DNA from: Clostridia bacterium
GTDB taxonomy: Bacteria; Bacillota; Clostridia; Oscillospirales; Acutalibacteraceae
Reading direction: 5' to 3'
Assembly: GCA_017461005.1 (NCBI GenBank)
Contig: JAFTZU010000056.1
Coordinates: 1 to 47,094, forward strand
Length of the DNA: 47,094 nucleotides
Positions 859-47,094 of this stretch are shown piece after piece (within the stretch, counting starts at the first letter, position 1; each line of letters begins with the position of its first letter). Made by a program: the position numbers and the translations under genes. Below the pieces are notes generated by a model that saw nothing but the letters and a program-made list of their open reading frames with translations, ran no database searches and was not told where the DNA came from.

Positions 859-1434
859 ATGAAACATAACGTCAAAGCGCTCGTTGCCGCATTGCTGACC
901 GCCCTCATGCTGGCCACCGCCGCGGTCCCGGCCTTCGCCGCCGACGCCAAAGCCGTCCCCGGCACCGTGACCACGCAGGCGAATGCCGGGTTCGTCAACG
1001 TGACGAGCGAGTACATCGCCCTCAACGCGCTGCGCCGCGAGCCCTTCGTCTCCCAGCTCAACGCGGACAACTTCACCCGCACCTTCTACAACACGACCCC
1101 CTTCGACCAGCTCCCGGTCCTCATGTATAACGCGGATCTCGAGAAGGCCGCGAAGGTCCGTGCCAAAGAGATCGTCAAACTCTTCAGCCACACCCGTCCG
1201 AACGGACAGCGCTGCTTCACGGCGTACCCGCAGATGAGCGCCCTCGGCGAGAACATCGCCTGCGGCCAGAGCTCCGTGACGGAAGTCATGATCGCCTTCG
1301 CTGAAGCGGACAAACCCTACTCCGGTCAGGGCCACCGCCGCAACATGCTGAACCCGAACTTCAACGCGGTCGGCTGCGCCTGCTACAAGGTCGGCAACTA
1401 CTGCTACTGGGTCCAGTGCTTCGGCCGGGTATAA
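859..1434 (+). CDS. Secreted CAP/SCP-domain protein (YkwD-like)
   Basis: A 191-residue protein with a signal peptide (MKHNVKALVAALLTALMLAT, probable cleavage after AFA near residue 29) and one CAP domain from about residue 50 to the end. Domain marks are the segment YIALNALR, DLEKAAKVRAKEI, the SHTRPNG loop, GENIACG, and GHRRNMLNP near the end, with the His and Glu residues that line the CAP cavity. Bacterial CAP proteins are secreted and mostly of unknown function; some bind lipids or cell-wall material. An AAAGGAGAG site precedes the ATG. A 10-codon frame starting at 828 overlaps the start through ATGA and is probably chance. Confidence 0.88.
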   Translation: MKHNVKALVAALLTALMLATAAVPAFAADAKAVPGTVTTQANAGFVNVTSEYIALNALRREPFVSQLNADNFTRTFYNTTPFDQLPVLMYNADLEKAAKVRAKEIVKLFSHTRPNGQRCFTAYPQMSALGENIACGQSSVTEVMIAFAEADKPYSGQGHRRNMLNPNFNAVGCACYKVGNYCYWVQCFGRV

Positions 1435-1464
1435 GCCATGTAAATCACTGTCCGCAGTGACGAA

Positions 1465-1503
1465 CCCCGCCCGACCATCCGGTCCGGCGGGGCTTCTGTT
1501 TTC
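1465..1503 (+). terminator. Terminator after the CAP-domain gene
   Basis: Stem CCCCGCC (1465-1471)/GGCGGGG (1486-1492) with an inner GACC/GGTC pair and a following CTTCTGTTTT tract. A smaller hairpin TCACTG-tccg-CAGTGA lies just before it (1444-1459). Confidence 0.75.
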
Positions 1504-1621
1504 CTCCGGTTGTAAAGATGTTTACTAGAACCGCGGTAAATCGCCAAAGTGTGCATACAATGAGGGTGAACGAGAACACTCGTTTTGCGCAAAACTGTTT
1601 TATGAAAAAGGAGGAAAACCC

Positions 1622-1993
1622 ATGGGCAAATTCACGATCAAACCGACCAACACAGGCTATGTCTTCAACCTGAAAGCCGGCAACGGCGAAGTCATCGCGG
1701 TCTCGCAGGTCTACAAAGCATTGGACGGCGCGAAGAACGGCATCGCGAGCGTACAGACGAACGCTCCCATCGCACCCGTCGAGGACCAGACCGTCGAAGG
1801 ATATGCGACTGAGAAGAATCCGAAGTTCGAGATCTACACCGACAAGGCCGGCGAATTCCGCTTCCGCCTCAAAGCCAAGAACGGCGAGATCATCGCAACC
1901 GGCGAGGGTTATGCCTCCAAAGCCGGCTGCAAGAACGGCATCGAGTCCATCCGCAAGAATGCGCCGGACGCCGACATCGTGGTCGAAGAATAA
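1622..1993 (+). CDS. YegP-like protein with two DUF1508 repeats
   Basis: A 123-residue soluble protein made of two copies of the DUF1508/YegP module. Copy one is about residues 1-48 (KFTIKPTNTGYVFNLKAGNGEVIAVSQVY, then GAKNGIASVQTNAP). Copy two is about 68-116 (KFEIYTDKAGEFRFRLKAKNGEIIATGEGY, then GCKNGIESIRKNAP). The repeats form a small beta-rich fold of unknown biochemical role; relatives are often linked with stress or stationary phase. An AAAAAGGAGG site precedes the ATG. Flanking terminators suggest a single-gene unit. Confidence 0.88.
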   Translation: MGKFTIKPTNTGYVFNLKAGNGEVIAVSQVYKALDGAKNGIASVQTNAPIAPVEDQTVEGYATEKNPKFEIYTDKAGEFRFRLKAKNGEIIATGEGYASKAGCKNGIESIRKNAPDADIVVEE

Positions 1994-2007
1994 ACCGAAC
2001 CTGAAAT

Positions 2008-2036
2008 GCCCGCTTCCTCTGGGAGCGGGCTTTTTG
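2008..2036 (+). terminator. Terminator after the YegP-like gene
   Basis: Stem GCCCGCT/AGCGGGC (2008-2014 and 2024-2030), extended by CC/GG pairs, followed by TTTTTG. Confidence 0.85.
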
Positions 2037-2087
2037 TTGCAAAAGCCTTTGGAAATCGAAAAGTTTCTTTTCTTGGGACAAGGTGTG

Positions 2088-2096
2088 TGCTACAAT
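2088..2096 (+). promoter_or_regulatory. Extended -10 promoter of ldh
   Basis: TGcTACAAT (2088-2096) is an extended -10. A poor -35 (TTTTCT near 2068) lies 17 bp upstream. The Rex-like operator begins 13 bp after the -10, in the expected early transcribed region. Confidence 0.55.
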
Positions 2097-2109
2097 GGGA
2101 AAGCAAAGA

Positions 2110-2127: not shown

Positions 2128-2168
2128 TATACTGTTCCTCATTTTCACCACAGAAAGAAGGTCATCCC

Positions 2169-3125: not shown

Positions 3126-3150
3126 CCGACTTTATAATCGAACGTACCAG

Positions 3151-4672: not shown

Positions 4673-4682
4673 GGAGGTCCCT

Positions 4683-5216
4683 ATGGCTACTACCCGTACA
4701 TCGCCAACGGGCACTCCCGGACGGCGTGTGGCACTGGACGGCATCCTCGTCGCTCTGGCGATGATCTTCTCCTACATCGAGACGTTCATCCCCTTCAACT
4801 TCGGCGTACCCGGCATCAAACTGGGCCTCGCGAACCTGGTGGTCCTCCTCGGGCTCACCTTCCTGCCGGCGGTCGACGTGCTGCTGGTCAGCGCCGTGCG
4901 CATCGTGCTCTCGAGCCTGCTCTTCGGCAATGTCATGTCCCTCTGGTACAGCCTGGCCGGCGGTCTCCTGAGCTTCCTCTGCATGTGGCTCCTCACGAGG
5001 CGGGAGGGGTACTCGATCATCGGCATCTCCATGGCCGGTGGCGTCATGCACAACGTGGGCCAGATCATCACCGCCGCCATCATCGTCAAGACCATCCAGC
5101 TCACCTGGTACCTGCCGGTCCTGCTCGTCGCGGGCCTCGTGACCGGTCTCATCATCGGCAGCCTTGCAAAGCTCCTCATGCCCCGCGTGCAGAAGGCGCT
5201 GGAGAGCTTCCACTGA
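4683..5216 (+). CDS. Gx transporter / heptaprenyl diphosphate synthase component I family membrane protein
   Basis: A 177-residue integral membrane protein with about five helices. It starts with the family mark LDGILVALAMIFSYIETFIPF, then GIKLGLANLVVLLGLTF, LSSLLFG and GGVMHNVGQ. Members are annotated either as component I of heptaprenyl diphosphate synthase or as Gx_transp, with an ECF-S-like membrane fold; in ApbE neighbourhoods a flavin or quinone-precursor role is suspected. The AAGGAGG site overlaps the previous stop. The motif copy GTACATCGCC (4696-4705) lies near the start codon, in the non-conserved N-terminal tail. Confidence 0.85.
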   Translation: MATTRTSPTGTPGRRVALDGILVALAMIFSYIETFIPFNFGVPGIKLGLANLVVLLGLTFLPAVDVLLVSAVRIVLSSLLFGNVMSLWYSLAGGLLSFLCMWLLTRREGYSIIGISMAGGVMHNVGQIITAAIIVKTIQLTWYLPVLLVAGLVTGLIIGSLAKLLMPRVQKALESFH

Positions 5217-5493: not shown

Positions 5494-8400
5494 ATGAAGA
5501 ATCCTGTATTGAAAAAAGCCATCGCTCTCGCCATGGGCGCGAGCCTCGCGGTGTCTATCCCGGTCATGGCCGCCTCCGGCGATGAAGTGGTCAAAGACGG
5601 CACGTACACGAAAGTGACCAAGGTCATCAACGACGGTCGGGATGACAACGACGGAGAATGGTCCGACTATGACCTGACCGTCACGCTTTCCGTGAAAGAC
5701 GGAAAGATCGAGTCCATCTCCGGCAAACCCGGCAGCACCTATGTGACGGAAAACGATGCCTACTATGACAAGGCGATGACCAAGAGAAACGGCATCAATA
5801 CCAAGCTCAAGAATCAGGATGCCACGGAAAACACCGTCAAAGGCTGGGATACTGTTTCGACCGCGACTCTGACATCGGAAGCCGCCAAGCAGGCAGTCCT
5901 CGACATCATCGCCGAAGCTCCGGTCGCTGGCAAGGAAGAACCGACGCAGGACGATGCCAAAACGGAGAGTGTCTATGTCATGATGAACATCCCGTATGAC
6001 GCTTTCTACAGTGCACAGGATGCCAAGAACTACGATACCGATGCCATGAGCTCCGCAACCAACAAAGTCGGCAACACCGGCTTTGCCGGCGGCGGATACC
6101 ACAGTGGCCAGACCGCAAATATCAAAGAAGACGGCACCGTCGAAGCCGTTGGCGGCGAGAACGGCGCCCATATGGAAGGCGTCACCTGGCCGGTCAAGGC
6201 GGCAAGCATCGACGCGGTCAAGGCGCTCGGAGGCACAGAAGTCACTGCGGACACCAAGGTCACCGTCGCGACTGCCGGCCATGGAGCGGTCTCTTCTTCC
6301 GAACGCACCGGAGCGGACGCTCTGATGGAAGCACCGTCTTATTCCTACTATGTCCTCGCAAATGAGCCGGCTTATTATCTCGAATTGAGCGGCGACGCAA
6401 AAGCGCCCGAATTCTCCGCTCTGAAGGGAGAAGCCAGAAAGCAGGATAAACTGGACGTGGAAGCAAACTATGGTTCCCACTGGGGCGATGTAGAACTGAA
6501 CCTCGGCACACTCGACGGTGTGACCGGAAAGAAAGTCAACGCCATCGTTCTGACCGCCGATGACGGCACGCAGGGCGGCCTTGTCCACCTCTATAACGTT
6601 TGGAAGAGCACGGACCTTGCCTGGGATACTGACAAAGTCACCGGCCTCGACGGAAAAAAACTCGTCAATGCCCGCTTCTACCTGACCGATACGAACAACG
6701 AGAACTTCTATGTTCTCGATTACCCGCTCGACGTCGACCTTCTTCCGGTCTACAATGACGGCGCAACAGCTGAATTGACCGACGAGAAGACCGTGGAATT
6801 CACCGGTCTCCCGGCAGACCTCAAAAACCCGAAAGCGGTCGTCTCCATCACGGAAGGTTCTAAGGGCGACCGGAAGACCACTTACCTGACCTCGACTTAC
6901 ATCGACCCTGCAGACAACGATACCGAGCCGAACCAGGACCCGGTCAAAGACAATAAAGTGGCACTGACCACGGCGGCCGAGGAAGGCAAGACGTATACGA
7001 TCTCGATTTCCTCGGACAACTATGCGCCGATCACCCTCAGCGCAAGGATCTTCAACGGCGGCTATGTCCTCATGAACGTCCCCTATGATGCGTTCTACGG
7101 CTCGGCCGGTACCTCGAACCTCGACGCGGACGCCATGAGTTCTGCGACCAACAAGGTCGGTAATGTCGGCAAGGCCGGCGGCGGCTACCACTCCATCGCC
7201 ACAGCGAAGAAGAATGAGGATGGCACTTACACGGCAGTTGGCGGCGAGAACGGCGCTCACATGGAAGGCGTCACCTGGCCCGTCAAGGTCGGTTCGCTCG
7301 CAGACCTCAAAGCGCTGAAGGGCAACGTCGTCACGGACGACTCCAAAGTCACGGTTGCCACCCTCGGCAGAGGTGCGACCAGCTCCACCGTTGTCGAAGG
7401 TGCCGGGGCGCTCATGGAAGCTCCGAGCTACTCCTACTATGCGCTCAGCGCAGAGCCGGCTCAGTACCTGGAGCTGACGGTCAAGGACGGCAAGGCCTCC
7501 TTCTCCGGGAACAAGGGTGAGGTCACGACCCTCGACAAGCTGGATGTCAACGTCTCCTACGGCACCAACTGGGGCGATGTACAGTTCGATTTCGATCAGC
7601 CGGAGGCGATCAACGGTAAACAGCTGAACGCCATGGTCATCACCGCGGAAGACGGCAAGAACGCCGGTATGATCCACCTCTACAACGCATGGTCCAACAA
7701 CTCGATCGCCTGGAAGGTCGCGAATGTCAAAGACCTCGACGGCAAAAAGATCACGAAACTGACGTTCTACATGAACGACAAGGCTGGTAACTACTTCGTC
7801 TATGACGTCCCGGTCGATGTCACCATCGTCCCGGTCTACACCGGCGAAGTCACGGCAGCGTTCGATGATGAGAAGACCGTTTCGGTCACCGGCCTCCCGA
7901 CCGACATCGCCAACGCCCGTGCCAAGGTCTACCTGAAGGGCCAGGGCAGGGGTGCCAAGAACACCTACCTGACGGCCGAGGAACTTGACCCGGCAGATGG
8001 TGATATCGATCCCGTCGATGTGGCGATGGACGGCAACAAGATCACTCTGAACCACGAGACCAACAAGCCGGAAGACGGCACCACCTACACCGTGGTCGTC
8101 GCCTCCGACAACTACGCGCCGATCACCACGACGGCAGAGTACAAGGCAGCCGCCGAAGAGCCGAAGCAGGACGAACCGAAGCAGGACGAGCCGAAACAGG
8201 ACGAGCCGAAGCAGGACGAACCCAAACAGGACGAACCTGCAGAGGTCCTGAACGGCCTGGTCCAGGGTCCCGACGGCAAGTGGGCGATGTACAAAGACGG
8301 CAAAGTAGACACCTCCGCGACCGGCGTGTTCCAGAATGTCCACGGCTGGTGGAGAGTCGAAAACGGCTACGTCAACTTTGACGCTCAGGGCATCTACCAG

Positions 8401-8798: not shown

Positions 8799-10220
8799 GT
8801 GAAAGTCAAAAAGGTCTCTGCGAAACCGGCAGAGAAATCCATCTACGAAAAAATCATCTCCTATGGCCCGTTGCTCCCCTGTCTTGCAGTGGCGGTGCTG
8901 GTGACCTCCGGTCTGTCCGGATACCGCGCCCCCGCTGCTGCCATGGGCAACACCTCGCAAAACACAGCCGTATCCGCCTCCGCGGGTACGGCCGGCGACG
9001 TTTCCGGCTCCACGACGGCGGCCATCCAGCGAAGCACGACGGTCAGCCGGTCGAACCCGGTCAGGACGAACGCCACCGCGGCGGCCGGAGCACAGAAGTC
9101 GCTCGGCAGCGTGAGTGAGTCCGGAACCTGGAAAGACGGCACCTATACCGGTACCGCCACCGGCTTCGTCGGCCCCATCACGGTCCGGGTGACGGTCTCC
9201 GGCGGGAAAATCACCGCGATCACGGTCACGAACTCGACCGACAACGAGCCTTACCTCACCAACGCGAAGGGCGTCATCCAGAAGATCCTGAACGGGCAGA
9301 CGACCAATGTGGACGTCGTGTCCGGCGCCACCTACAGTTCCAACGGCATCATCGGTGCTGTCCGGAACGCGCTGGCCAAAGCAGCGGTCAGCGGCAGCGC
9401 GAACGCGGCACAGGGCAGTGGATCCTCTGCGACCGCTCCGTCGACGACCACGACGACCCGCAAACCGGTCAGCGCCGGGCAGGCGGGACAGTTCCCGTAC
9501 CCGGACGGCACCTATGAAGGGGAGGGCGAAGGCCGGAACGATATCATCCGCCTGGCGGTCACGCTGAAGGACGGGTCGATCACCGACATCAGCGTCCTCG
9601 AGCACTACGAGGATGAGGAACCGTACTTCCGCAACGCGAGACAGCTGCTCGAGGACGTGAAGACGGCCCAGAGTCTGAATGTCGATACCGTCTCCGGCGC
9701 CACGCTGTCCTCCAACGGTCTCCTGGAAGCGCTGAACGACGCGCTCGGCAAGGCGAAGGCCGCGGGCAGCGCCGCCTCCTCGACGGAGCCGGAGAGCACG
9801 ACCCGTACATCGCCACAGGAAGAGAGCACCACAACAACGACGGACGCCACGAGTTCCGCCCAGCCGGAGAACCCGGCGACCGCAGAGGGCACCGTTTACC
9901 GCAACGGAGAGTACTTCGTGTCCGTCACCTGCGAGCCGGATGAGGACGAGGACTTCGACCCCTACACGCTCACACTGAAGGTGACCATTCGCGCGGACAA
10001 GATCACGAACATCACCGACGTCTCCGGCGACGGCGCGTCCTCGAACCAGAGTTACATCAACAAGGCGGTGAACGGGACGTCGAAGAAGGCCGGGGTCGTG
10101 AGCCAGATCACGGCGAAGGGCGATCCTGCCGGCATCGACGCGGTCTCCGGCGCCACTTGCACGTCGGATGCCATAGTGAAAGCGTGTGAAGACGCTCTGG
10201 CGCAGGCCCGTGTGGTATAA
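8799..10220 (+). CDS. Triple FMN_bind-domain flavoprotein
   Basis: A 473-residue protein with one N-terminal membrane helix (about residues 24-42) and three extracytosolic FMN_bind domains (PF04205) joined by Ser/Thr-rich linkers. Each carries the ApbE target motif: DVVSGATYSSNG (172-183), DTVSGATLSSNG (296-307) and DAVSGATCTSDA (447-458). The Thr residues expected to bind FMN are 178, 302 and 453. It probably works as a multi-flavin relay outside the membrane. The GTG start at 8799 is the best available; its AGGAG (8781-8785) is 13 nt away, longer than usual. It follows the surface protein gene by 20 bp without a terminator. Confidence 0.9.
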   Translation: MKVKKVSAKPAEKSIYEKIISYGPLLPCLAVAVLVTSGLSGYRAPAAAMGNTSQNTAVSASAGTAGDVSGSTTAAIQRSTTVSRSNPVRTNATAAAGAQKSLGSVSESGTWKDGTYTGTATGFVGPITVRVTVSGGKITAITVTNSTDNEPYLTNAKGVIQKILNGQTTNVDVVSGATYSSNGIIGAVRNALAKAAVSGSANAAQGSGSSATAPSTTTTTRKPVSAGQAGQFPYPDGTYEGEGEGRNDIIRLAVTLKDGSITDISVLEHYEDEEPYFRNARQLLEDVKTAQSLNVDTVSGATLSSNGLLEALNDALGKAKAAGSAASSTEPESTTRTSPQEESTTTTTDATSSAQPENPATAEGTVYRNGEYFVSVTCEPDEDEDFDPYTLTLKVTIRADKITNITDVSGDGASSNQSYINKAVNGTSKKAGVVSQITAKGDPAGIDAVSGATCTSDAIVKACEDALAQARVV

Positions 10221-10714
10221 TGTCCACTATGAAACGGAAACATAAGTCTTTTGTGCTGCGGCTCGTGAGCCTCGTGGTCATCGTCGCGGCACTTCTTACG
10301 TACAATCTCATCACTCAGAACCGGCTCGACGCGGAGGCGGAGGCCCGGGCAGCGGCGGAAGCCGTCACGGTCTACGACCCTCTGGCAGGCGATGTACTGA
10401 CCGAAGCGTCTGACGCGTCCGCGGACACCTCTGTCGGAGCGGGTTCCTGGAAGGACGGCACCTGGGAAGGGGAGGCCACCGGCTACGGCGGTCCCATCCG
10501 GGTCAGTGTCGTCGTGTCCGGCGGGAAGATCACCTCCGTCGGGGTCCTGTCACACGACCTCGAGGATGACGCCTACTACAGCATGGCGGAAGCTGTCATC
10601 CCGGAGGTCATCGACGCCCAGTCCACCGCGGTGGATACGGTCAGCGGCGCCACGTTCTCCTCGAACGGCATCCTCGGCGCGGTCGACAAGGCACTGGAAG
10701 GGGCGGTGAACTGA
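10220..10714 (+). CDS. Membrane-anchored FMN_bind-domain protein
   Basis: A 164-residue protein with an N-terminal helix (about residues 11-28) and one FMN_bind domain. GSWKDGTWEGEATGYGGPI opens the domain, and DTVSGATFSSNG (139-150) is the ApbE flavinylation site with FMN expected on Thr145. The start overlaps the previous stop as TAATG, so translation is probably coupled; an alternative ATG lies three codons in (10229). It sits directly before the NapH-like gene, which suggests it takes electrons from that membrane protein. Motif copy GGCGATGTAC at 10388-10397 uses GAT and GTA, which are less common here than GAC and GTC. Confidence 0.9.
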   Translation: MSTMKRKHKSFVLRLVSLVVIVAALLTYNLITQNRLDAEAEARAAAEAVTVYDPLAGDVLTEASDASADTSVGAGSWKDGTWEGEATGYGGPIRVSVVVSGGKITSVGVLSHDLEDDAYYSMAEAVIPEVIDAQSTAVDTVSGATFSSNGILGAVDKALEGAVN

Positions 10715-14126: not shown

Positions 14127-14144
14127 ATCGCCACGGCGATTTAC
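14123..14144. repeat. Inverted pair of the GGCGATTTAC motif
   Basis: GTAAATCGCC (14123-14132) and GGCGATTTAC (14135-14144) form a perfect inverted repeat with a 2-bp centre. The stop codon TAA of the upstream gene lies inside the left arm. The proper terminator follows at 14162. Confidence 0.9.
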
Positions 14145-34288: not shown

Positions 34289-35572
34289 ATGGCAAACGTA
34301 CGTCATTCTGTCGCACTGACTCTGGAAAAGTGTAAAGGGTGTACCCACTGTCTGCAGCGCTGCCCGACGGAAGCCATCCGCATCCGGGACGGACACGCGC
34401 AGATCACGACGACACTCTGCATCGACTGCGGCGAATGCATCCGGACCTGCGGGTACCAGGCGAAACATGCCGAAGCGGACCCCTTCGAATGCATTCAGGA
34501 CTACAAATTCAAGATCGCGCTGCCCGCCCCGGCACTCTATGGGCAGTTCGACCATCTCGATGACATCAACTATGTGCTGGAAGGCCTTTTGAAGATCGGC
34601 TTCGATGACATTTTCGAAGTGGCGCAGGCAGCCGAACTGGTCTCCGGATATTCCCGCCGCTACATCATGCGGGAGGACGTTCCGAAACCGGTCATCAGCT
34701 CCGCCTGTCCCGTCATCGGACGGCTCATCTCCATCCGCTATCCGGACCTCGTGGACAACGTCATGCCGCTCCACCCGCCGGTGGATATGGCGGCAAAACT
34801 GGCCCGGATCGTGGCATTGAAGGAACACCCGGAACTGACGGACGAAGACATCGGCATCTTCTTCATCTCGCCCTGTCCCGCCAAGGTCTCGTACCTGAAG
34901 CAGGAGGCCGAGGAAGACCGGAAACTGGTGGACGGCGTCCTCAGCATGACGGACATCTACAAACGCCTCGTGCAGGTCATGAAGCGTGGCGATGTACCGC
35001 CTCCCCGTTCCAAAACCGGCCGCGTCGGCATCCGCTGGGCGGGCTCCGGAGGAGAGGCGAAAGCCCTCTCGAAGCACCGTCACCTGGCAGCCTCCGGCAT
35101 CGAGAATGTCATCAAAGTACTCGACAGTATCGACAACGACACCTTACCGGACCTCGACTTCATCGAACTGAACGCGTGTCCGGGCGGATGTGTCGGCGGA
35201 GTGCTGGCCGTGGAGAACCCCTTCGTGGCCCGGTCCCGTCTCCTCTATGTGGAACGGACCATGCCGGAGTCCAGAAACTGGGACTTCTCCAAAAAGCAGG
35301 ACAGCACGTTCATCCCGGGAGACTATTTCCTGGAAGAGTCGCTGCTGTACGACCCGCCGGAAGCCCTGGACCCCGACCGCCGTCAGGCCCTCCTGAAACG
35401 GATGGAGCTCGAACGGATCGCAGGGGAGCTCCCGTCGCTGGACTGCGGCGCCTGCGGAGCCCCGACCTGCCGGGCACTGGCAGAGGACATCGTCCGTGGC
35501 ACCGCCACGATCAAAGACTGTCTGCTGCTGGACAGGGTCCGGAGCAACCAGACAAAGGAGGATGAGACATGA
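34289..35572 (+). CDS. HydS-like [FeFe] hydrogenase homologue, probable H2 or redox sensor
   Basis: A 427-residue protein. Two [4Fe-4S] sites open it (CKGCTHCLQRCP, CIDCGECIRTCG). A hydrogenase large-subunit domain follows: SSACP (C140) in place of TSCCP, SPCPAK (C196), and ACPGGCVGG (C297, C301), so the usual four Cys positions for an H-cluster are present while the proton-relay Cys is Ala. The C terminus has a further Fe-S motif CGACGAPTC with a later Cys (386, 389, 394, 411), as in PF04060. The family of sensory (group C) hydrogenases shows the same Cys-to-Ala change but usually has a PAS domain, absent here. A sensor or regulator of HydABC is the best guess. Motif copy GGCGATGTAC at 34988. 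Confidence 0.8.
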   Translation: MANVRHSVALTLEKCKGCTHCLQRCPTEAIRIRDGHAQITTTLCIDCGECIRTCGYQAKHAEADPFECIQDYKFKIALPAPALYGQFDHLDDINYVLEGLLKIGFDDIFEVAQAAELVSGYSRRYIMREDVPKPVISSACPVIGRLISIRYPDLVDNVMPLHPPVDMAAKLARIVALKEHPELTDEDIGIFFISPCPAKVSYLKQEAEEDRKLVDGVLSMTDIYKRLVQVMKRGDVPPPRSKTGRVGIRWAGSGGEAKALSKHRHLAASGIENVIKVLDSIDNDTLPDLDFIELNACPGGCVGGVLAVENPFVARSRLLYVERTMPESRNWDFSKKQDSTFIPGDYFLEESLLYDPPEALDPDRRQALLKRMELERIAGELPSLDCGACGAPTCRALAEDIVRGTATIKDCLLLDRVRSNQTKEDET

Positions 35573-36620: not shown

Positions 36621-37181
36621 GTGCAGGAACTTTCTCTGAACATCCTGGACATCACGATGAACGGCATCGCCGCGGGCGCCGACACGATGCGCATCAGCAT
36701 CGAGGAAGCTTACCCGGCCATGACCATCAGCATCCGGGACAACGGGTGCGGTCTCTCCGAAGAGACGCTGGAAAAACTCCGCGACCCGTTTTTCACGAGC
36801 CGGACTACCCGCAAAGTCGGGATGGGCGTCCCGCTCTTTGAGATGCAGGCCGAGATGACCGGCGGGAATCTCGAGATCTCGTCGGTGGAAGAACCGGCCG
36901 AGGGGCACGGGACCACCTTCAAAGCCCTGTTCTACATGCACAACATCAACTTTGTGCCGCTGGGCGATATGGTCTCCACGCTCATCACCCTCATCCAGGG
37001 CAATCCGAACATCGATTTCATCTATCATCACCACACAGCGAATGGGGACGTCGACCTTGACATGCGCGAAGTTAGGGAGACTTTGGGCGATGTACCGGTC
37101 AACGAACCCGACATCCTGCTGTGGCTGCAATCTTTCTTAGAAGAACAGTATGAAGCTATCAAGGAAGGAGAACGCTTATGA
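36621..37181 (+). CDS. Sensor-kinase-like GHKL ATPase in the hydrogenase operon
   Basis: A 186-residue protein with a histidine-kinase-type ATPase domain. The N box is LDITMNGIAAGA, G1 is RDNGCGLSEE, F box PFFTSR, G2 is KVGMGVPLFEMQAEMTGG, and GHGTTFKALF ends the sheet. It lacks a dimerisation/His domain, so it is not a classical kinase. The C-terminal 70 residues (NINFVPLGDMVSTLITLIQG onward) form an added helical domain. It starts with GTG 3 bp after the PHP gene and overlaps the next gene by 4 bp. Motif copy at 37086-37095. Confidence 0.82.
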   Translation: MQELSLNILDITMNGIAAGADTMRISIEEAYPAMTISIRDNGCGLSEETLEKLRDPFFTSRTTRKVGMGVPLFEMQAEMTGGNLEISSVEEPAEGHGTTFKALFYMHNINFVPLGDMVSTLITLIQGNPNIDFIYHHHTANGDVDLDMREVRETLGDVPVNEPDILLWLQSFLEEQYEAIKEGERL

Positions 37182-37565: not shown

Positions 37566-39374
37566 ATGATAAGATCTCATGTTATGATCTGCGGCGGTTC
37601 GGGCTGTACCGCCAGCGGAAGCAAAGCATTGCAGGAGGCCATGGAGAAAGAACTGGTGGCAAAAGACCTCCAGGACGAAGTCAAAGTGGTCCAGACCGGC
37701 TGTTTCGGTCTCTGCGAACTCGGCCCCATCATGGTCGTTTACCCCGGCGATGTCTTCTACAGCCGTGTCACGGTCGATGACATCCCCGAAATCGTGGAAG
37801 AGCACCTCCTGAAGGGCCGTATCGTGGATCGCCTTGTCCACGAGGACGAAGTCCTGAAAGAGCAGGTCACCTCTCTGAATGACACGAGCTTCTACCAGGT
37901 CCAGAAGAGAGTCGCGCTCAAGAACTGCGGCCTCATCGACCCGGAGAGCATCGATGAATATCTGGCGATGGACGGTTATGTCGCCCTGCAGAAAGTCCTG
38001 CAGGAGATGACTCCGGACGACGTCATCCAGGTCATGCTCGACTCCGGCCTCCGCGGACGCGGCGGCGCCGGTTTCCCGACGGGCCTCAAGTGGAAATTCG
38101 CCAAGGGCTATGACGCACCGCAGAAGTTCGTCTGCTGTAACGCCGACGAAGGCGACCCCGGTGCCTTCATGGACCGTTCCATCCTGGAAGGCGACCCCCA
38201 CGTGGTCCTCGAAGCCATGACCATCGCCGGTTACGCGATCGGCGCGAACCAGGGTTACATCTACGTCCGCGCGGAGTATCCGATCGCGGTCCAGCGTCTG
38301 AAGATCGCCCTTGACCAGGCCCATGAGTACGGCCTCCTCGGCAAGAACATCATGGAGACCGGATTCGATTTCGATATCGACATCCGCCTCGGCGCCGGCG
38401 CATTCGTCTGCGGCGAAGAGACGGCCCTCATGACCTCCATCGAAGGCAACCGCGGTGAGCCCCGTCCCCGTCCTCCGTTCCCGGCCGAAAAGGGTCTGTT
38501 CCAGAGCCCGTCCATCCTGAACAACGTTGAGACCTGGGCGAACATCCCCCAGATCATCATCAACGGTCCGGAATGGTTCGCAGCCATGGGTACCGAGAAG
38601 TCCAAGGGTACCAAGGTCTTCGCCCTCGGCGGCAAGATCAAGCACACCGGCCTCGTCGAGATCCCGATGGGTACCACCCTTCGCACCGTCATCGAAGAAG
38701 TCGGCGGCGGTATCCCGAACGGCAAGAAATTCAAAGCGGCGCAGACCGGCGGCCCGTCCGGCGGCTGTATCCCCGCATCTCACATCGACGTCCAGATGGA
38801 CTATGAGCACCTCGCCGAGATCGGATCCATCATGGGTTCCGGCGGACTCATCGTCATGGACGAAGACAACTGCATGGTCGACATCGCGAAATTCTTCCTG
38901 AAGTTCACGGTCGACGAATCCTGCGGTAAATGTACGCCCTGCCGCATCGGTACCAGAAGAATGCTCGAGATCCTCGACCGCATCACCGAAGGCAAAGGCA
39001 CCATGGAAGATATCGACAAGCTGGAAGAGCTCGCCTATTACATCAAGGAGAACGCACTCTGCGGCCTTGGTCAGACGGCTCCGAACCCGGTCCTGTCCAC
39101 CATCCGTTTCTTCCGCGACGAGTACATCGCCCACATCCAGGACAAGAAATGTCCCGCCGGCGTATGTACCGCGCTGCTCTCCTACGTCATCGACCCGGAG
39201 AAATGTATCGGCTGCACCATGTGTCAGCGGAACTGCCCGGCCGACGCCATCTCTGTCACCGACTACGTGGCAGAAGGCCACAAGAAGCCGTCGCTCGCCA
39301 TTGACACTGACAAGTGCATCAAGTGCGGCGCCTGCATGAACAATTGTAAGTTCGGCGCTATTTCGAAGCAGTAA
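37566..39374 (+). CDS. hydB: HydB / NuoF-like flavin and Fe-S subunit of the bifurcating hydrogenase
   Basis: A 602-residue subunit that binds NAD(H) and FMN and is the proposed bifurcation site. Residues 1-90 are a thioredoxin-like [2Fe-2S] domain (CGGSGC, CFGLCELG). The FMN and NADH sites follow: GRGGAGFPTGLKW, NADEGDPGAFMDR, GAGAFVCGEETALM and EGNRGEPRPRPPFP. The [4Fe-4S] ligand set is ESCGKCTPCRIGT. Two C-terminal [4Fe-4S] sites end it (CIGCTMCQRNCPADAI, CIKCGACMNNCKFGAI). The ATG at 37566 gives the family N terminus; the longer frame overlaps the preceding gene. AGGAGGG precedes it. Confidence 0.95.
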   Translation: MIRSHVMICGGSGCTASGSKALQEAMEKELVAKDLQDEVKVVQTGCFGLCELGPIMVVYPGDVFYSRVTVDDIPEIVEEHLLKGRIVDRLVHEDEVLKEQVTSLNDTSFYQVQKRVALKNCGLIDPESIDEYLAMDGYVALQKVLQEMTPDDVIQVMLDSGLRGRGGAGFPTGLKWKFAKGYDAPQKFVCCNADEGDPGAFMDRSILEGDPHVVLEAMTIAGYAIGANQGYIYVRAEYPIAVQRLKIALDQAHEYGLLGKNIMETGFDFDIDIRLGAGAFVCGEETALMTSIEGNRGEPRPRPPFPAEKGLFQSPSILNNVETWANIPQIIINGPEWFAAMGTEKSKGTKVFALGGKIKHTGLVEIPMGTTLRTVIEEVGGGIPNGKKFKAAQTGGPSGGCIPASHIDVQMDYEHLAEIGSIMGSGGLIVMDEDNCMVDIAKFFLKFTVDESCGKCTPCRIGTRRMLEILDRITEGKGTMEDIDKLEELAYYIKENALCGLGQTAPNPVLSTIRFFRDEYIAHIQDKKCPAGVCTALLSYVIDPEKCIGCTMCQRNCPADAISVTDYVAEGHKKPSLAIDTDKCIKCGACMNNCKFGAISKQ

Positions 39375-39386: not shown

Positions 39387-41144
39387 ATGGATACCATTAC
39401 CTTGAAAATCGATGGAGTAGAAGTGACGGTCCCCAAGGGATATACAGTTCTTCAGGCAGCTCATGAAGCGGCCATCAAGATCCCGACACTCTGCTACCTC
39501 AAAGAGATCAACGAGATCGGCGCCTGCCGCATGTGTCTCGTCGAAGTCAAAGGCTCTCCGAAACTGGCGGCTGCCTGCGTATTCCCCGCAGCGGACGGCA
39601 TGGAAGTCTACACCAACACCCCGCGGATCATCGAGAACCGGAAAAAGACCCTCGAACTGATCCTTTCCAACCACAGAAAAGAATGTCTGTCCTGCGTCCG
39701 TTCCGGCAAGTGCGAGCTCCAGCAGCTCTGCCAGGAATACGGCATCGAGGACGAGAACTACTATGCGGGCGCGAACCCGGTCTTCGAGATCGACGATTCT
39801 GCCGCTCACATGGTTCGCGACAACTCCAAGTGCATCCTTTGCCGTCGCTGCGTCGCCGCCTGTACGGTGAGCCAGGGCATCGGCTGCATCGGCCCGAACA
39901 ACCGCGGCTTCGACACGAACATCGGTTCTGTCTTCGATCTGCCGCTGGCTGAGACGTCCTGCATCCACTGCGGACAGTGCATCGCGGTCTGCCCGACCGG
40001 TGCCATCTATGAGAAAGACTCCGTCGACGATGTCTTTGCGGCGATCCACGATCCGAGCAAACACGTCCTCGTCCAGGTCGCTCCCGCCGTCCGTGCCGGC
40101 CTTGCCGAATGCTTCGACAAGCCCATCGGCACCGACGCCCAGGGCAAGATGGCTGCCGCCATGCGCAGACTCGGCTTCGACAAAGTCTTCGACACCGTCT
40201 TCTCCGCCGACCTCACCATCATGGAAGAGGCCAACGAGTTCATCGACCGTGTTTCGAACGGCGGCGTCCTGCCGATGATCACCTCCTGCTCGCCGGGATG
40301 GGTCAAGTTCTGTGAAACCTACTATCCGGACATGATCCCGAATCTGTCCACCTGTAAATCGCCCCAGGGTATGTTCGGCGCAGTCGCGAAGAGCTACTAT
40401 GCCGAGAAAGAGGGCATCGACCCGAAAGACATCGTCATGGTCTCCATCATGCCCTGTACCGCGAAGAAGTTCGAGTATGGACGTCCCGAGATGAACATCG
40501 ACGGGCTCAGAGACAACGATTACGTCCTGACCACCCGTGAGTTCGGCCGCATGATCAAACGTGCCGGCATCAACTGGGATATGCTTCCCGAAGAAGACTT
40601 CGACCTGCCGCTCGGTCTCGGTACCGGCGCCGGCGTCATCTTCGGTGCCACCGGCGGCGTCATGGAAGCGGCACTTCGTACCGCTGTCGAGACCCTCACC
40701 GGTGAGGAACTGCCGAACGTCGACTTCGAAGACGTCCGCGGTCTCAAGGACATCCGTACCGCGACCTACGAAGTGGCCGGTCTCACCGTCCGCGTCGCTG
40801 TCACCTCCGGTCTGGCGAACGCCCGCAAGCTCCTTGACATGGTCAAGGCCGGCGAGCTCGAAGTCGACTTCATCGAAGTCATGGCCTGCCCCGGCGGCTG
40901 CGTCAACGGCGGCGGTCAGCCCCAGGTCCATGCGGACATCCGCAACTTCGTCGACATCCGTGCCGAGCGCGCCAAAGTCCTCTATGCTCTGGACAAAGGC
41001 AACGCCATCCGGAAGTCCCACGAGAACCCCGCCATCAAGGAGATCTACGAGACCTTCCTCGGCGAACCCGGCTCTCACCTTGCGCACAAGCTGCTCCACA
41101 CCACGTACACCGAACGCAAAGTCAACGGCAACTGGGAAAAGTAA
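39387..41144 (+). CDS. hydA: HydA, catalytic subunit of the bifurcating [FeFe] hydrogenase
   Basis: A 585-residue catalytic subunit that makes or uses H2. In order: a [2Fe-2S] ferredoxin domain (about 1-80, CRMC), the His-Cys3 site HRKECLSCVRSGKCELQQ, two [4Fe-4S] sites (CILCRRCVAAC, CIHCGQCIAVCP), then the H-cluster domain. Its motifs are TSCSPGW (299-305), IMPCTAKKFE (C357) and EVMACPGGCVNGGGQ (C501, C505). The second Cys of the usual TSCCP is Ser302. The small-subunit-like end NPAIKEIYETFLGEPGS follows. AAGGAGG precedes the ATG. Maturases HydE, HydF and HydG are not in the window. Confidence 0.95.
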   Translation: MDTITLKIDGVEVTVPKGYTVLQAAHEAAIKIPTLCYLKEINEIGACRMCLVEVKGSPKLAAACVFPAADGMEVYTNTPRIIENRKKTLELILSNHRKECLSCVRSGKCELQQLCQEYGIEDENYYAGANPVFEIDDSAAHMVRDNSKCILCRRCVAACTVSQGIGCIGPNNRGFDTNIGSVFDLPLAETSCIHCGQCIAVCPTGAIYEKDSVDDVFAAIHDPSKHVLVQVAPAVRAGLAECFDKPIGTDAQGKMAAAMRRLGFDKVFDTVFSADLTIMEEANEFIDRVSNGGVLPMITSCSPGWVKFCETYYPDMIPNLSTCKSPQGMFGAVAKSYYAEKEGIDPKDIVMVSIMPCTAKKFEYGRPEMNIDGLRDNDYVLTTREFGRMIKRAGINWDMLPEEDFDLPLGLGTGAGVIFGATGGVMEAALRTAVETLTGEELPNVDFEDVRGLKDIRTATYEVAGLTVRVAVTSGLANARKLLDMVKAGELEVDFIEVMACPGGCVNGGGQPQVHADIRNFVDIRAERAKVLYALDKGNAIRKSHENPAIKEIYETFLGEPGSHLAHKLLHTTYTERKVNGNWEK

Positions 41145-41260: not shown

Positions 41261-41621
41261 TGATGCCCTGCACTTGAAGCATGGACCCCTATACAACTCC
41301 GAATTTTGTCAAAGCTTCGCATTGGCGATTTACCCCTCACTTGCAGTGCCACTGGCAAAGCTTCCGCGGTGATATCCGCGTTCCAGCAGAGCTGTCCGCG
41401 TACTTACGCCCTCTGCTGCACTCCGGGCGTGGGTGCCACAGTGCTCCGGCGCTGTCAAGGGCGCTCCCGAGCGCCGCATTCCGTGCGGCTCAGCCCTATG
41501 ACAGCCCCTCCGCCTTGCGGCACGGGGCAAACAACAGGCCAAAGGGGCACTGCGGCCCTTCGGCCTGCCAAACAATTATGGGGAAGCCATGAGTGACAGG
41601 GGAAAAGCAGTTTTTGTAGAA
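41261..41621. other. Gene-free GC-rich stretch before the hairpin array
   Basis: A 360-bp stretch with no credible gene. Short open frames exist on both strands but lack ribosome binding sites, family matches and normal codon use. It holds small inverted repeats such as CGCGG-tgat-ATCCGCG (about 41367) and GGGCGCTCCCGAGCGCC (about 41459), and one copy of the window motif (GGCGATTTAC, 41324-41333). It could be a decayed mobile repeat or a non-coding RNA. Confidence 0.5.
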
Positions 41622-43373: not shown

Positions 43374-44747
43374 TTAAGAGGCGTCTGGCTTTTGTGCCCG
43401 CATGTCTCTGCCGAGCTGGCGCCAGACCGTGAGCATCATCGTGGTGAAGCAGGCCGTGCCGCCGACCACGTTGGAGATGGGCTCTGCCATGAAGACGCCG
43501 TCGGTGCCGAGGCCGAAGAGGTGCGGCAGGAGGTAGGTCAGCGGAACGACAATGACCACCTTGCGGAACAGGGAGAAGAAGATGGCCTGTCGCTTCTTGT
43601 TGAGCGCCTTGAAGGTCGTCTGTCCGCAGTACTGGAGGCCCTGTCCGATGAACGCGAAGAAGTAGAGGTGCAGCGCCGGGATGGCGTCCGCCAGAATGGT
43701 CTTGTCATTCGTGAAGATGCCGATGAACCATTCGGGCTTCCACAGGATGAACAGCCAGATGGCCAGCGTGTAGGTCAGGTTGGCGGCTGTCATCAGGGCG
43801 ATGGCCCGCCGCACTCTGGCCGGGCGTTCCGCACCGTAGTCGTAGCTCATGACCGGGCTGGTGCCTTCCGACACCGCGAGGGCCGGCACGTCGACGAACT
43901 GCCGCACGCTGGCGAGGATGGTCATGACCGAGACGTACAGGTCACCGCCGAAGTGGGACAGTACCGAGTTGCAGGACAGCGTGACGAGCGCGTTGGTGAC
44001 CGCCATGATGAACCCGGCCGTGCCGAGAGAAGTGATGTTCCGGGCCACCGTCCCAAAATCCCTGGGGCGATGTACGGTAAGGCGGAGTTCACACCGCCGT
44101 CGGAGGTACCAGAGCACCAGGACCGCGGAAACGAACTGCGAAAGGACTGTCGCGACGGCCGCGCCGCGCGTGCCGAGTCCGAGGCCGAAGATGAAGACCG
44201 GGTCCAGTATGACGTTGAGAATGGCGCCGATGGAAACGGTCAGCATACCGAACCCCGTATACCCCTGCGCGTTGATGAAGGGGTTCATGCCTGTGACGAC
44301 CATCGAGAAGAAGGTGCCGAGCAGGTAGATGCGCAGGTAGGGGAGCGCATAGGGAAGGGTGGCTTCCGACGCGCCGAACAGCATCAGGAACGGGCGGCTG
44401 AAGAGGAGCCCGACCGCCATGATGATCAGCGCCGCACCGGACAGCAGCAGGAACGCCGTCGTCTGGATGTGCCGCGCGCCTTCCCGGTCCTTCGCTCCGA
44501 GAGCGATGGAGAAGAGCGGCGCGCCGCCGGTGCCGAACAGGTTCGCGAAGCCGATGGTCAGGATGACCAGCGGGAAGCAGAGCCCCACACCGGCCAGGGC
44601 CATGGTGCCTTCTCCCGGGATGCGCCCGAGGAAGATCCGGTCCACGATGTTGTAGAGAAGGGCGAACAGCTGCGCTACCAGCATGGGCAGGGCAGACTGG
44701 ATCATATTGCGGCCTACGGAGCCGTGTTCAAAGTCGACCTGGCGCAT
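43374..44747 (-). CDS. MATE family efflux transporter
   Basis: A 457-residue membrane protein with about 12 helices in two repeated halves, typical of MATE cation-coupled exporters. It opens GSVGRNMIQSALPMLVAQLF and has NIVDRIFLGRIPGEGTMALAG, GTGGAPLFSIALGAKD, INAQGYTGFGMLTVSIGAIL and DPVFIFGLGLGTRGAAVATV. The second half has DVPALAVSEGTSPVMSYDYGA. GAGGAGGGG precedes the ATG. It lies 46 bp downstream of the SMR gene on the same strand, so the two exporters may share a transcript. Substrate unknown. Confidence 0.92.
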   Translation of the reverse strand: MRQVDFEHGSVGRNMIQSALPMLVAQLFALLYNIVDRIFLGRIPGEGTMALAGVGLCFPLVILTIGFANLFGTGGAPLFSIALGAKDREGARHIQTTAFLLLSGAALIIMAVGLLFSRPFLMLFGASEATLPYALPYLRIYLLGTFFSMVVTGMNPFINAQGYTGFGMLTVSIGAILNVILDPVFIFGLGLGTRGAAVATVLSQFVSAVLVLWYLRRRCELRLTVHRPRDFGTVARNITSLGTAGFIMAVTNALVTLSCNSVLSHFGGDLYVSVMTILASVRQFVDVPALAVSEGTSPVMSYDYGAERPARVRRAIALMTAANLTYTLAIWLFILWKPEWFIGIFTNDKTILADAIPALHLYFFAFIGQGLQYCGQTTFKALNKKRQAIFFSLFRKVVIVVPLTYLLPHLFGLGTDGVFMAEPISNVVGGTACFTTMMLTVWRQLGRDMRAQKPDAS

Positions 44748-45114: not shown

Positions 45115-45226
45115 AAGAAAACCTCCAAAACAAAACACGTCATCTCCAGTCCCTTCTAAGACCTAACGGGAATGGAAATGACGTGCTTCCTGCTACCCGG
45201 TGGCAGCAGGCGTCGTTCAAATTGTT
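45115..45226 (-). promoter_or_regulatory. Structured leader of the SMR gene, candidate riboswitch or attenuator
   Basis: About 112 nt of leader on the minus strand. The 5' half has a hairpin with arms CCTGCT/AGCAGG and a 10-nt loop (45210-45189). The 3' half has a long stem (CACGTCAT/ATGACGTG at its base, then TCCA/TGGA and CCC/GGG; 45185-45136) followed by TTTTGTTTT, which looks like an intrinsic terminator just before the ribosome binding site. GACG (45215-45212) can instead pair with CGTC of the terminator stem, giving two exclusive folds. SMR exporters are often under guanidine riboswitches, but I cannot match a known class. Confidence 0.55.
45136..45185 (-). terminator. Terminator-like hairpin in the SMR leader
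   Basis: About 16 base pairs with two mismatches, then TTTTGTTTT on the minus strand, directly before the GGAGG of the SMR gene. Confidence 0.65.
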
Positions 45227-45232
45227 GGCAAC

Positions 45233-45261
45233 AGCATAGCGGAAAATGCCCGCGCTGTCAA
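45233..45261 (-). promoter_or_regulatory. Promoter of the SMR gene
   Basis: On the minus strand: perfect -35 TTGACA (45261-45256), 17-bp spacer, -10 TATGCT (45238-45233). It lies just after the stop of the nitrogenase-like gene. Confidence 0.8.
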
Positions 45262-45270
45262 TGGGTGCGT

Positions 45271-47094
45271 TCAGCGGGTGCCGCTTGGACCGAGGAACAC
45301 CGCCATTTTGTCGCGGTACATGCGGCCGGAGTAGCTTTCCGACGGCACGTCGTGGAATTCCTTGGGCGATGTACCCTCCAGGCTCCCGGCCGGCAGCAGG
45401 TTCCGGTACAGCGGGTCCGCATAGATGACGTCCGCTGCCGCAAGGGCCGCCTTGATGACCGGCTCCCGCCAGCTCTGCAGGTCCGTGTCTCTCAGACACC
45501 CGCAGGGGTCTTCGAGGGGGCAGAGGACCTGAACATCCAACGCGGGTCCTGTGGCCGGGCCGGTCAGTGCGCAGGACGCGCCCTGCTCCAGCACCCATCG
45601 CAGGCTCGCCGCGTACACCGGCTCGCCGATGAGGAGTGTGTGTGGAACGGGAGAGACCGTCTGGCTGTCGGACGAAGACGCAACAGAAGCGTCTGCCTGA
45701 GCGGACTCGCCCCAAAGGCTCTTGTTCTCTCCGGTCAGCGCCGCTTCCTTCAGAAGGTCCGCCATCCGTGCACAGGCATCGTCGCCCATCGGCAGACCGA
45801 CCACATACGGAGTGCCAAAGCGTTCCTGAAGCACTTTGGCGGCGTCCAGCGCGGTGGAGGAGAGGACGAGGTTCACGTCCGCCTCCGCGGAGCGGGCGAT
45901 GGAGCCGAGCGAAGCGAGGTCTCCGCCGTCGCGGGGGTTCATCGCCCAGGAGGACACCACATCGAAGTGGTTGTCAGAGCACCAGTCGAGCAGCGCTTCC
46001 ACGTTCCCGACGACCGAGAAGTCCAGGGGCGTCAGACCGAGGAGGTTCACCTTCCAGTGGGGCTCGGAGCGTTTCTGTTTCTGCTCTTCCAGGATACGCG
46101 TCGCCATGACGTCGTAGGGACAGCGGCCCTGATTGCAGTCGAAGTCCATGTCTCGGTGGTCCGTGACCGGCTCCGGCTTCTCGTCGACGAACCGCTCCGC
46201 CAGCGCGCGGAACGCCTGGCGCATGCCGGCCTGGTACGTGTGCATGCCGGACGTGTCGAAGTGCAGGGTCGGGATGCCGGACCGCTTCTCGATGACCCGG
46301 GCCACACCTTTGAAGTCCGTCCCGGTCATGGCCGCTATGGGCGAGCCGAACACCGCAATGAACTTCGGGTGCGTCTCCTTCGCCGCTTCGACGACGTCGG
46401 AGATGTATTTTTCATCGTTGCCGAGGATGGCGTCGTACTCCCGCAGCCCTGAGATGAAGATAAGGCTGTCGGAGCCGTACCACCGGGGCTCGTCGTGGGT
46501 CGCGTAGGTGGAGTTGCAGCCGGATGCGTCGTGCATGACGAGAAGCCCGCCGAGCTCATAGAGCGCGGAGCACACGCCGCTGAGGTCGGACGAGTAGTTG
46601 ACAGCATACAGAGAAGCCTGCTCGGCCTCTTTCGGGCGATTTACGGGTGTGCCTTCAGAGGCTGTCTGAGTCCCTGCTTCGGAGGTCTCCGACGGTACCG
46701 TTGCAACTGAAGACTGTGCCAGCCCTTCGGCCACGACCTCGGCCGAACCGATGGCTTTCTCGGACAGGACCGCCTCGATGTCTTTGACATGTTCCGCCGC
46801 GTCCTGCATCAGAGCGCAGAGTTTCGTGATGCCCCGGAACCCGAGAAGCCCGGACTGGTAAATGAGGTTCACAAAATGGCCTGTGTTGCCGTAATAAGCG
46901 GCTTTCTGCCCGATGGCGAGCACGTTCCCGTCTTCATCGGAAGCGTCTTCAAAGGGCATCTGGCGCATCCTCCAGTCGATCATCGGAAGCGTCGTCGCCT
47001 CATGGCCGTGTTTCGCGGCGAGCGTCTCCCACTGCGCCTTCGCGTCCTCGTCCAGAGGACCGCAGGCGTCCGCGTACACGCAGGTGACCGTGAA
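45271..47094 (-). CDS. Nitrogenase-like component 1 protein, apparently a fusion of two subunits (partial)
   Basis: 607 codons are visible; the frame is open to the window edge, so the start is missing. The first 120 residues (WRMRQMPFEDASDEDG, AIGQKAAYYGNTGHFVNLIY, GFRGITKLCALMQDA) look like the C-terminal end of one nitrogenase component 1 (NifD/NifK-like) chain. A 40-residue Ser/Thr/Glu-rich linker follows. Then a second chain begins: YAVNYSSDLSGVCSALYELGG, HDASGCNSTYATHDEP with a cluster-type Cys, IAVFGSPIAAMTGTDF and GIPTLHFDTSGM. A CNQGRC insertion is unusual. The true role cannot be told; related NifH-like and transporter genes may lie beyond the edge. Two window-motif copies lie in it, one in the linker. 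Confidence 0.75.
   Translation of the reverse strand, partial: FTVTCVYADACGPLDEDAKAQWETLAAKHGHEATTLPMIDWRMRQMPFEDASDEDGNVLAIGQKAAYYGNTGHFVNLIYQSGLLGFRGITKLCALMQDAAEHVKDIEAVLSEKAIGSAEVVAEGLAQSSVATVPSETSEAGTQTASEGTPVNRPKEAEQASLYAVNYSSDLSGVCSALYELGGLLVMHDASGCNSTYATHDEPRWYGSDSLIFISGLREYDAILGNDEKYISDVVEAAKETHPKFIAVFGSPIAAMTGTDFKGVARVIEKRSGIPTLHFDTSGMHTYQAGMRQAFRALAERFVDEKPEPVTDHRDMDFDCNQGRCPYDVMATRILEEQKQKRSEPHWKVNLLGLTPLDFSVVGNVEALLDWCSDNHFDVVSSWAMNPRDGGDLASLGSIARSAEADVNLVLSSTALDAAKVLQERFGTPYVVGLPMGDDACARMADLLKEAALTGENKSLWGESAQADASVASSSDSQTVSPVPHTLLIGEPVYAASLRWVLEQGASCALTGPATGPALDVQVLCPLEDPCGCLRDTDLQSWREPVIKAALAAADVIYADPLYRNLLPAGSLEGTSPKEFHDVPSESYSGRMYRDKMAVFLGPSGTR

Follow-up and report, generated by a model that had tools for sequence, protein, structure and literature searches.

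We analyzed the distribution of the 10-nt word GGCGATKTAC (K = G or T; G form GGCGATGTAC, T form GGCGATTTAC) in a stretch of 47,094 nt from a member of the Clostridia (contig JAFTZU010000056.1, in the following the window), in the genome that contains it (G000) and in related genomes, among them the other seven species of the same genus (G001 to G007). In the window we found 20 exact copies, 11 on the plus and 9 on the minus strand. An earlier note on this DNA had expected well under one copy by chance, which agrees with 100 dinucleotide shuffles of the window (mean 0.15 copies, maximum 1). All 19 copies listed there were found at the given starts and its minus count of nine is right; one plus-strand copy at 8283 had been overlooked, so that its plus count of ten has to be raised by one. 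Furthermore, we observed 14 copies with a single mismatch, and GGCGAT is unchanged in 14 of 14. Four of the near copies named previously (6484, 11105, 15895 and 42829) are such single-mismatch copies, while a fifth, placed at 33289, is located at 33279.

Copies of the word in the window

G forms on the plus strand are read in frame at 7573..7582 (G-D-V) and 8283..8292 (W-A-M-Y, the newly added copy), both within the open reading frame (ORF) 5494-8778, as well as at 10388..10397 (ORF 10220-10714, G-D-V-L), 14978..14987 (ORF 14255-15391, G-D-V-P) and 34988..34997 (ORF 34289-35572, G-D-V-P; one of four aligned relatives has it too). Another plus-strand G form in ORF 36621-37181 (37086..37095) is shared by each of the three relatives aligned there, namely G001, G002 and G007. 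On the minus strand, the G form at 16304..16313 lies in the frame G-D-V-R of an AAA-ATPase-like ORF (15612-16889), and G006 has this copy while G001 has not. The minus-strand G form at 4696..4705 is probably coding as well: by manual reading it belongs to the 5' end of a gene ending at 5216 (R-T-S-P), although the later start set by our gene caller scores it as intergenic.

Many copies run antisense to the gene in which they lie. This applies to the minus-strand G forms at 1011..1020 (ORF 859-1434, codons Y-I-A), 9805..9814 (ORF 8799-10220, codons R-T-S-P) and 39122..39131 (Y-I-A codons of a NuoF-like ORF that ends at 39374; two of seven aligned relatives keep it), and to the plus-strand G forms at 44066..44075 (MATE-like ORF 43374-44747; kept in the sole aligned relative, G004) and 45365..45374 (ORF 45271-47079). 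The last-named ORF also carries an antisense T form on the plus strand (46635..46644, V-N-R). Two minus-strand T forms are antisense to conserved genes: of the six relatives aligned at 20104..20113 in the ribosomal protein L2 gene, four keep the copy, and it is altered in G001 and in G006 (a species of the other spelling described below), and the copy at 40354..40363 in an iron-hydrogenase-like ORF (39387-41144) is kept in all four aligned relatives of the same spelling and not in G003 and G006. The remaining T forms are intergenic (1536..1545, minus strand; 41324..41333, plus strand) or form the sole inverted pair with separate arms among the 101 sampled sites of this genome, whose left arm at 14123..14132 (minus strand) overlaps the TAA stop of ORF 11937-14126 and whose right arm lies at 14135..14144 (plus strand).

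Between 16.4 and 34.9 kb of the window the copy at 20104 is the only one. An S10-Clostridia ribosomal leader (Rfam RF03136, 42.3 bits) is found at 17132-17210, upstream of the ribosomal protein operon. The intergenic region 41623-41800 contains three consecutive inverted-repeat units, TCCATACAAA(T)...(A)TTTGTATGGA, a local repeat without relation to the word; an array resembling these units recurs on a different contig of G000 (L094, 18092-18283).

Genome-wide excess, coding context and shape of the word

The earlier note had proposed counting the word in the whole genome and in relatives. G000 comprises 2,119,127 bases in 200 contigs (~95% complete) and contains 453 copies, 228 forward and 225 reverse, corresponding to ~1 copy per 4.7 kb, while the reversed word used as control occurs 8 times (4 + 4). 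The more detailed sample was composed of the window and 20 further stretches of G000 (386,338 bases), in which 101 copies were observed compared to 1.6, 2.6, 5.8 and 11.9 copies expected from Markov models of orders 2 to 5. Genes were assigned by a home-made gene caller with rough starts, according to which ~85% of the sampled sequence is coding. By this assignment 68 of the 101 sites are coding, 14 span a gene edge and 19 lie between genes. The coding copies are neutral to the gene strand, with 32 along it and 36 opposite to it, and among the 33 edge and intergenic sites 22 are closer to the 3' end of a gene and 11 to a 5' end. As most sites lie in coding DNA, the word is not a site for promoter regulators. 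Shuffling synonymous codons within genes yielded 8.65 copies on average (at most 15 in 100 shuffles) and drawing from the genome-wide synonymous codons yielded 6.13, compared to the 68 coding copies observed. A genome-wide count near the Markov expectation or copies explained by codon pairs alone, the two outcomes named in advance as arguments against a signal, were thus both not what we found.

The T form often overlaps a stop codon: in 18 of 344 genes the stop is followed by ATCGCC (0.35 expected), and 12 of these 18 carry the full word G-TAA-ATCGCC. Since the word is carried by both gene strands, by gaps and by stop codons, it is a signal at the level of DNA. Moreover, its copies press on the protein sequence. 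When 3777 residue triplets were ranked by their excess over a first-order model, GDV was found at rank 3 and YIA at rank 30, with AMY only at rank 364. With the genes divided into fifths by increasing codon bias, the density of the word per 10 kb was 4.34, 2.19, 2.02, 1.20 and 1.34.

These results bear on the explanation that the word reflects biased codon pairs or amino acids, or else a repeat that spreads or a terminator element. Most coding copies indeed lie in the G-D-V and Y-I-A frames and the pair at 14123/14135 has the form of a stem-loop, which would agree with such an origin. However, the excess persists after synonymous shuffling, 33 of the 101 copies lie at gene edges or in gaps, the sequences flanking the word show weak preferences, and the changes seen in alignments are mostly substitutions, so that we give this explanation hardly any credence. 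A codon or peptide bias as sufficient cause was rejected on the shuffled counts, and a terminator or hairpin element as general role was rejected on the scarcity of inverted pairs, of which only 2 at a distance of at most 40 bases occur among the 101 sites. One of these consists of overlapping copies, which form the 16-base palindrome GGCGATGTACATCGCC at G000:C14:32754-32769 and are kept in G004.

Next, we compared single mismatches at each position of the word with their expectation. Positions 1-6 (GGCGAT) are almost fixed, with single mismatches near or below expectation (the largest value being position 1 of the G form, 8 versus 5.3). Mismatches of the G form are in excess at positions 7 (11 versus 3.3), 8 (65 versus 16.6) and 10 (16 versus 8.9), so that the 3' part of the word is softer. 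In the flanks we observed weak column preferences (C at -4, G/T at -3 to -1), which may be noise because an isolated C located 22 bases past the word is equally strong. Along the contigs the spacing is near random (coefficient of variation 0.905 compared to 0.999 for random sites; 16.5% of simulations are equally low), and the genes in word-free gaps of more than 9 kb look like housekeeping genes, judged from their first 60 residues.

Strand polarity was judged by the GC skew of contigs with unmapped replication origin and terminus. On contigs with a skew >0.01, 43 sites were oriented along the G-rich and 41 along the C-rich strand; orientations do not clump by contig (p 0.87), and the local GC skew splits the sites 58 versus 43 (p 0.16). 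This speaks against a polar signal for recombination or chromosome translocation of the Chi or KOPS (FtsK orienting polar sequence) type, as had been argued before from the balanced strands of the window. In favour of such a signal, short words overrepresented in many genomes are typical of Chi (PMC4390886), and the longest contig taken alone shows a split of 17 versus 8. On the whole, we regard Chi- or KOPS-like polarity as disfavoured by the even orientation and this explanation as very improbable.

Taxonomic range, dialects and conservation

In the other seven species of the genus (G001 to G007) we counted 162, 475, 21, 434, 104, 126 and 352 copies of GGCGATKTAC. Outside the genus, 72 relatives from the same family or order have 0 to 27 copies each, and among 390 other members of the class (384 new to the survey) the highest number was 43 (G369, control 6), so that none of the 456 genomes outside the genus exceeds this value. 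GGCGATKTAC is therefore restricted to one genus of rumen Clostridia. This genus is probably RUG420, since contigs of RUG420 and allied metagenome-assembled genomes (MAGs) match the genomes of the genus: the best alignments of RUG420, RUG258, RGIG2480 and RGIG4968 to stretches of G003, G002, G004 and G001, respectively, show 100% identity over 7.7 to 18.6 kb. RUG420 is placed in the Acutalibacteraceae (PMC12139142), and the named relatives by SecY are rumen or gut MAGs. We also searched 20-60 kb from each of 15 other genera of the family for comparable words. The top words scored 23 in G008, 18 in G010, 18 in G014, 17 in G019 and 17 in G042, compared to 21 for GGCGATKTAC in 60 kb. The words found in G008 and G010, and most of those in G014, were rejected as scattered signals because their positions indicate local repeats; the top word of G019 has 5 copies in one stretch, that of G042 is a palindrome found in 3 places, and the others are also few. 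Another genus of the family may nevertheless possess a scattered word. In the class relative G382 one strand carries 133 copies of the reversed control word, probably as a repeat array.

Analysis of the enriched k-mers in each relative revealed a second spelling. Both GGCGATGCA and GGCGATTCA are enriched in G006 and, to a weak degree, in G003. We therefore distinguish the A spelling, GGCGATKTAC (two words), from the B spelling, GGCGATKCAS (four words), which share the core GGCGATK; the B counterpart of the A word GGCGATGTAC is, for example, GGCGATGCAC. Whole-genome A:B counts were 453:202 in G000, 475:226 in G002, 434:184 in G004, 352:154 in G007, 162:55 in G001 and 104:60 in G005, and 126:506 and 21:128 in the B-preferring species G006 and G003. 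Controls for the B word were 13 in G006 (506 observed), 18 in G003 (128) and 8 in G000 (202). The B word is also raised in A species and the A word in G006 (13 copies, compared to a Markov expectation of 0.4 to 1.2), and for this reason we consider the dialects as preferences. GGCGAT itself is scarce in G003, with 22 occurrences in 118 kb; even so, 10 of them continue as GGCGATKCA. In a tree of the hydrogenase, from which G002 was left out as it yielded no full-length match for the gene, the A-spelling species G000, G007, G001, G004 and G005 form one clade (100/100), and G003 and G006 are placed outside this clade and inside the genus (100/99) with their relative order unsettled. Over these eight species, with partly overlapping spellings, the dialects thus follow phylogeny and keep the inner core.

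Two peculiarities of the B-preferring species were recognized in passing. In G003 (stretches L107-L109 and L145-L153) GCGAT, GGCGAT and several ATC words are strongly depleted compared to sister species of similar G+C, perhaps due to a shift of codon preference from ATC to ATT. In G006, hairpin units around ACTAGGACC...GGTCCTAGT, mostly 54 to 75 bases apart, form two arrays (L117, 31-340; L158, 6345-7020) rich in the otherwise avoided CTAG.

To evaluate conservation we aligned the eight species, counted each place of a species once per other species, removed overlapping loci and computed the expected retention from neighbouring 10-mers in the same phase; the species pairs are not independent. 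Among A species the A word was kept in 98 of 143 cases (48.0 expected), and at 65-80% identity in 12 of 20 (2.3 expected). Across the dialect border it was kept in 1 of 37 cases from A to B species (2.0 expected) and in 1 of 11 from B to A species (0.4 expected). For the B word we observed 2 of 3 among B species (0.4 expected, a small sample) and 2 of 24 from B to A species (2.8 expected). As a control we used the other GGCGATNNNN words, of which 600 of 1482 were kept among A species (477.0 expected, 1.26-fold), 68 of 293 at 65-80% identity (29.2 expected) and 17 of 439 from A to B species (33.5 expected). Hence, the A word is retained among A species at about twice the expectation and beyond the control, and not in excess across the dialect border, where the sites are few. 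Sites were gained and lost mostly by base substitutions, for example in the genes of ribosomal protein L2 and the hydrogenase.

Possible readers of the word and comparison with known systems

We next considered which cellular system might read the word. The main rival to an uptake sequence is a site for a chromosome-organising or DNA-repair protein specific to the genus, which would be bound about every 5 kb on either strand and serve nucleoid packing, segregation or orientation-independent break repair. Its strand-neutral and near-random spread along the chromosome, the location of two thirds of the sampled sites in coding DNA and the tendency of the others towards gene 3' ends agree with such a site, and a change in the protein could drive the shift of dialect. 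On the other side, sites of nucleoid proteins are usually palindromic or degenerate whereas this word is asymmetric, no candidate protein is at hand, none having been sought, and the respelling between sister species would imply hundreds of changed sites for a possibly essential function. We regard this explanation as unlikely. If the reader is a chromosome protein, a genome-wide system of sites with fast respelling would likewise be unexpected.

A word could also be kept frequent as the target of an orphan DNA methyltransferase or because a defence system uses it to tell self from non-self, as was proposed for HIP1 (highly iterated palindrome 1) of cyanobacteria. The core GGCGAT is half of extended HIP1, GGCGATCGCC, and genomes with HIP1 are described to possess orphan methyltransferases for inner parts of it (PMC4390886). 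Our search covered the methylase families PF00145, PF01555 and PF02384, with D12-type and other families outside its range. None of the three was found above the cut-off in G000; the C5 methylase family PF00145 was found in 0 of 8 genomes of the genus, PF01555 only in G004 with a partial match (66 of 221 positions) and PF02384 in G004 and weakly in G002. Furthermore, the word is not palindromic, and the HIP1 octamer GCGATCGC was found 14 times over both strands, that is in only 7 places, in 386 kb of G000. These observations make a methylation site improbable. The portal family of HK97 type also had a match in 0 of 8 genomes of the genus, and together with the missing C5 methylases this perhaps indicates a sparse defence and phage footprint.

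Genes related to DNA uptake were searched in the same manner. ComEC was found in 23 of 23 genomes tested, including 8 of 8 within the genus, and ComEA above the cut-off in 7 of 8 genomes of the genus, the exception being G003, a 91% complete MAG with the fewest copies of the word. A secretion ATPase (PF00437) of CpaF strength (181 to 189 bits) is present in 7 of 8, the exception being G001 (84% complete); in other genera, the sister genus G008 has no match above the cut-off and G022 has one of 453 bits. G000 possesses a predicted Tad pilus cluster (L095; G000:C40, 6407-16026) composed of what we take, from inspecting the translations and without a family search, to be a prepilin peptidase, TadE/TadG-like proteins, a Flp-like pilin, TadB/C, CpaF and CpaE. 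By the same inspection, G006 presumably has a CpaE-CpaF-TadB order resembling this cluster. As a second strong PF00437 match of the ComG/PilB type was not found in the genus, the Tad pilus would be needed for uptake; a precedent is Micrococcus luteus, in which transformation requires a Tad locus (PMC6668835).

Among the three readings offered in the earlier note, an uptake sequence fits best because of the asymmetric word, the neutral orientation, the restriction to one genus, the dialects with constant core and the competence genes; a modification site is weakened and a chromosome-protein site remains a candidate. Judged from this analysis, the chances are about even that GGCGATKTAC is a DNA uptake (self-recognition) sequence with dialects. 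In such a system competent cells would carry a DNA receptor on their surface, perhaps one of the minor pilins of the Tad pilus, that recognizes the asymmetric duplex word whichever way it is oriented. DNA set free by members of the same genus would thereby be favoured for uptake and recombination, and copies would build up through point changes wherever coding permits. Shifts in receptor preference would shift the spelling at positions 8 and 10 while the GGCGATK core stays, and at least two dialects would result in the genus. Natural transformation, the receptor and the role of the word in directing uptake are what we infer here. As ComEA of other Gram-positives is reported to bind DNA without sequence preference (PMC10564135, PMC12236230), the specificity, if real, would sit elsewhere than in ComEA. 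More tentatively, and with somewhat more doubt than confidence, we propose a candidate Gram-positive (Firmicutes) uptake system in which the genus marks its own DNA with GGCGATKTAC/GGCGATKCAS and reads it via a Tad-pilus competence machine, with an uptake specificity that would have arisen independently of that in Neisseriaceae and Pasteurellaceae.

Several observations weigh against an uptake sequence. Family members without the word carry ComEC too, and some also have PF00437 matches, while in the genus the matches other than CpaF reach at most ~25 bits. The excess of mismatches at position 8 and the near absence of inverted pairs described above belong here as well, as such sequences in Neisseriaceae (DNA uptake sequence, DUS) and Pasteurellaceae (uptake signal sequence, USS) often occur in terminators as inverted pairs (PMC1852404). 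A species also have the B word in excess (35 copies in the G000 stretches, compared to a Markov expectation of 4.7 to 12.6); it is kept among them in 24 of 50 cases (14.7 expected), and from A to B species in 2 of 6 (0.6 expected, a small sample). For the sites of G000 alone, retention in A species was 19 of 36 (10.9 expected), and part of the conservation is due to codon constraint, since other GGCGAT words are also kept in excess. Uptake or transformation data for the genus were not found, and one review credits only the Gram-negative families Neisseriaceae and Pasteurellaceae with sequence-specific uptake (PMC5031613); according to a further source, B. subtilis is not known to prefer any sequence (PMC10564135). 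Among the open-licence papers listed in our searches (titles and beginnings of abstracts, excluding subscription papers and preprints) we found no case of sequence-specific uptake for a Gram-positive (Firmicutes) lineage and no report of the G-form word, GGCGATTTAC not being part of this search; the papers listed for the G form deal, judged by title, with other organisms. Campylobacter discriminates DNA by methylation.

If GGCGATKTAC is an uptake sequence of unrelated origin in Clostridia, a new lineage would become available for testing how word and receptor coevolve. It would also point to transformation as a route of DNA exchange in a gut genus, and the word would be a tag for moving DNA into the genus. 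On one diet, RUG420 can make up as much as 27% of the ileal community of sheep, according to PMC12139142.

Published classes of such words include Chi, HIP1 and uptake sequences (PMC4390886). Chi and KOPS are likewise short and overrepresented, and differ by a strand polarity that is absent here. HIP1 resembles our word as a clade-wide overrepresented sequence with an identical left half, GGCGAT (PMC4390886); however, we rejected membership since HIP1 is a palindromic octamer and GGCGATKTAC is asymmetric. The octamer itself is infrequent here, and no methylase link was seen in the three families searched. The USS of Pasteurellaceae is similarly short and has two spellings built around a common core (PMC12616744), whereas the word itself is unrelated, the phylum is another, no long A/T-rich extension was seen here and uptake is inferred. 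The DUS of Neisseriaceae is, like GGCGATKTAC, an asymmetric 10-mer on both strands with dialects that follow clades around a constant inner core (PMC3630211), a behaviour described for both DUS and USS (PMC12616744, PMC3630211). In contrast to DUS, our word is not tied to terminator hairpins, has a Clostridia host and has a putative receptor in place of ComP and a putative role in uptake, and its number (453 per 2.1 Mb) and density (~1 per 4.7 kb) lie below those of the DUS genomes, with roughly 900 to 5900 DUS per genome (PMC3630211), which is another point against an uptake sequence; for uptake sequences in general a range of 'hundreds to several thousands' per genome is given (PMC5031613). 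Taken together, the frequent inverted terminator pairs that are typical of uptake sequences, without defining them, are missing, while GGCGATKTAC shares with them an asymmetric word on both strands in hundreds of copies, dialects that keep the core and the restriction to one genus.

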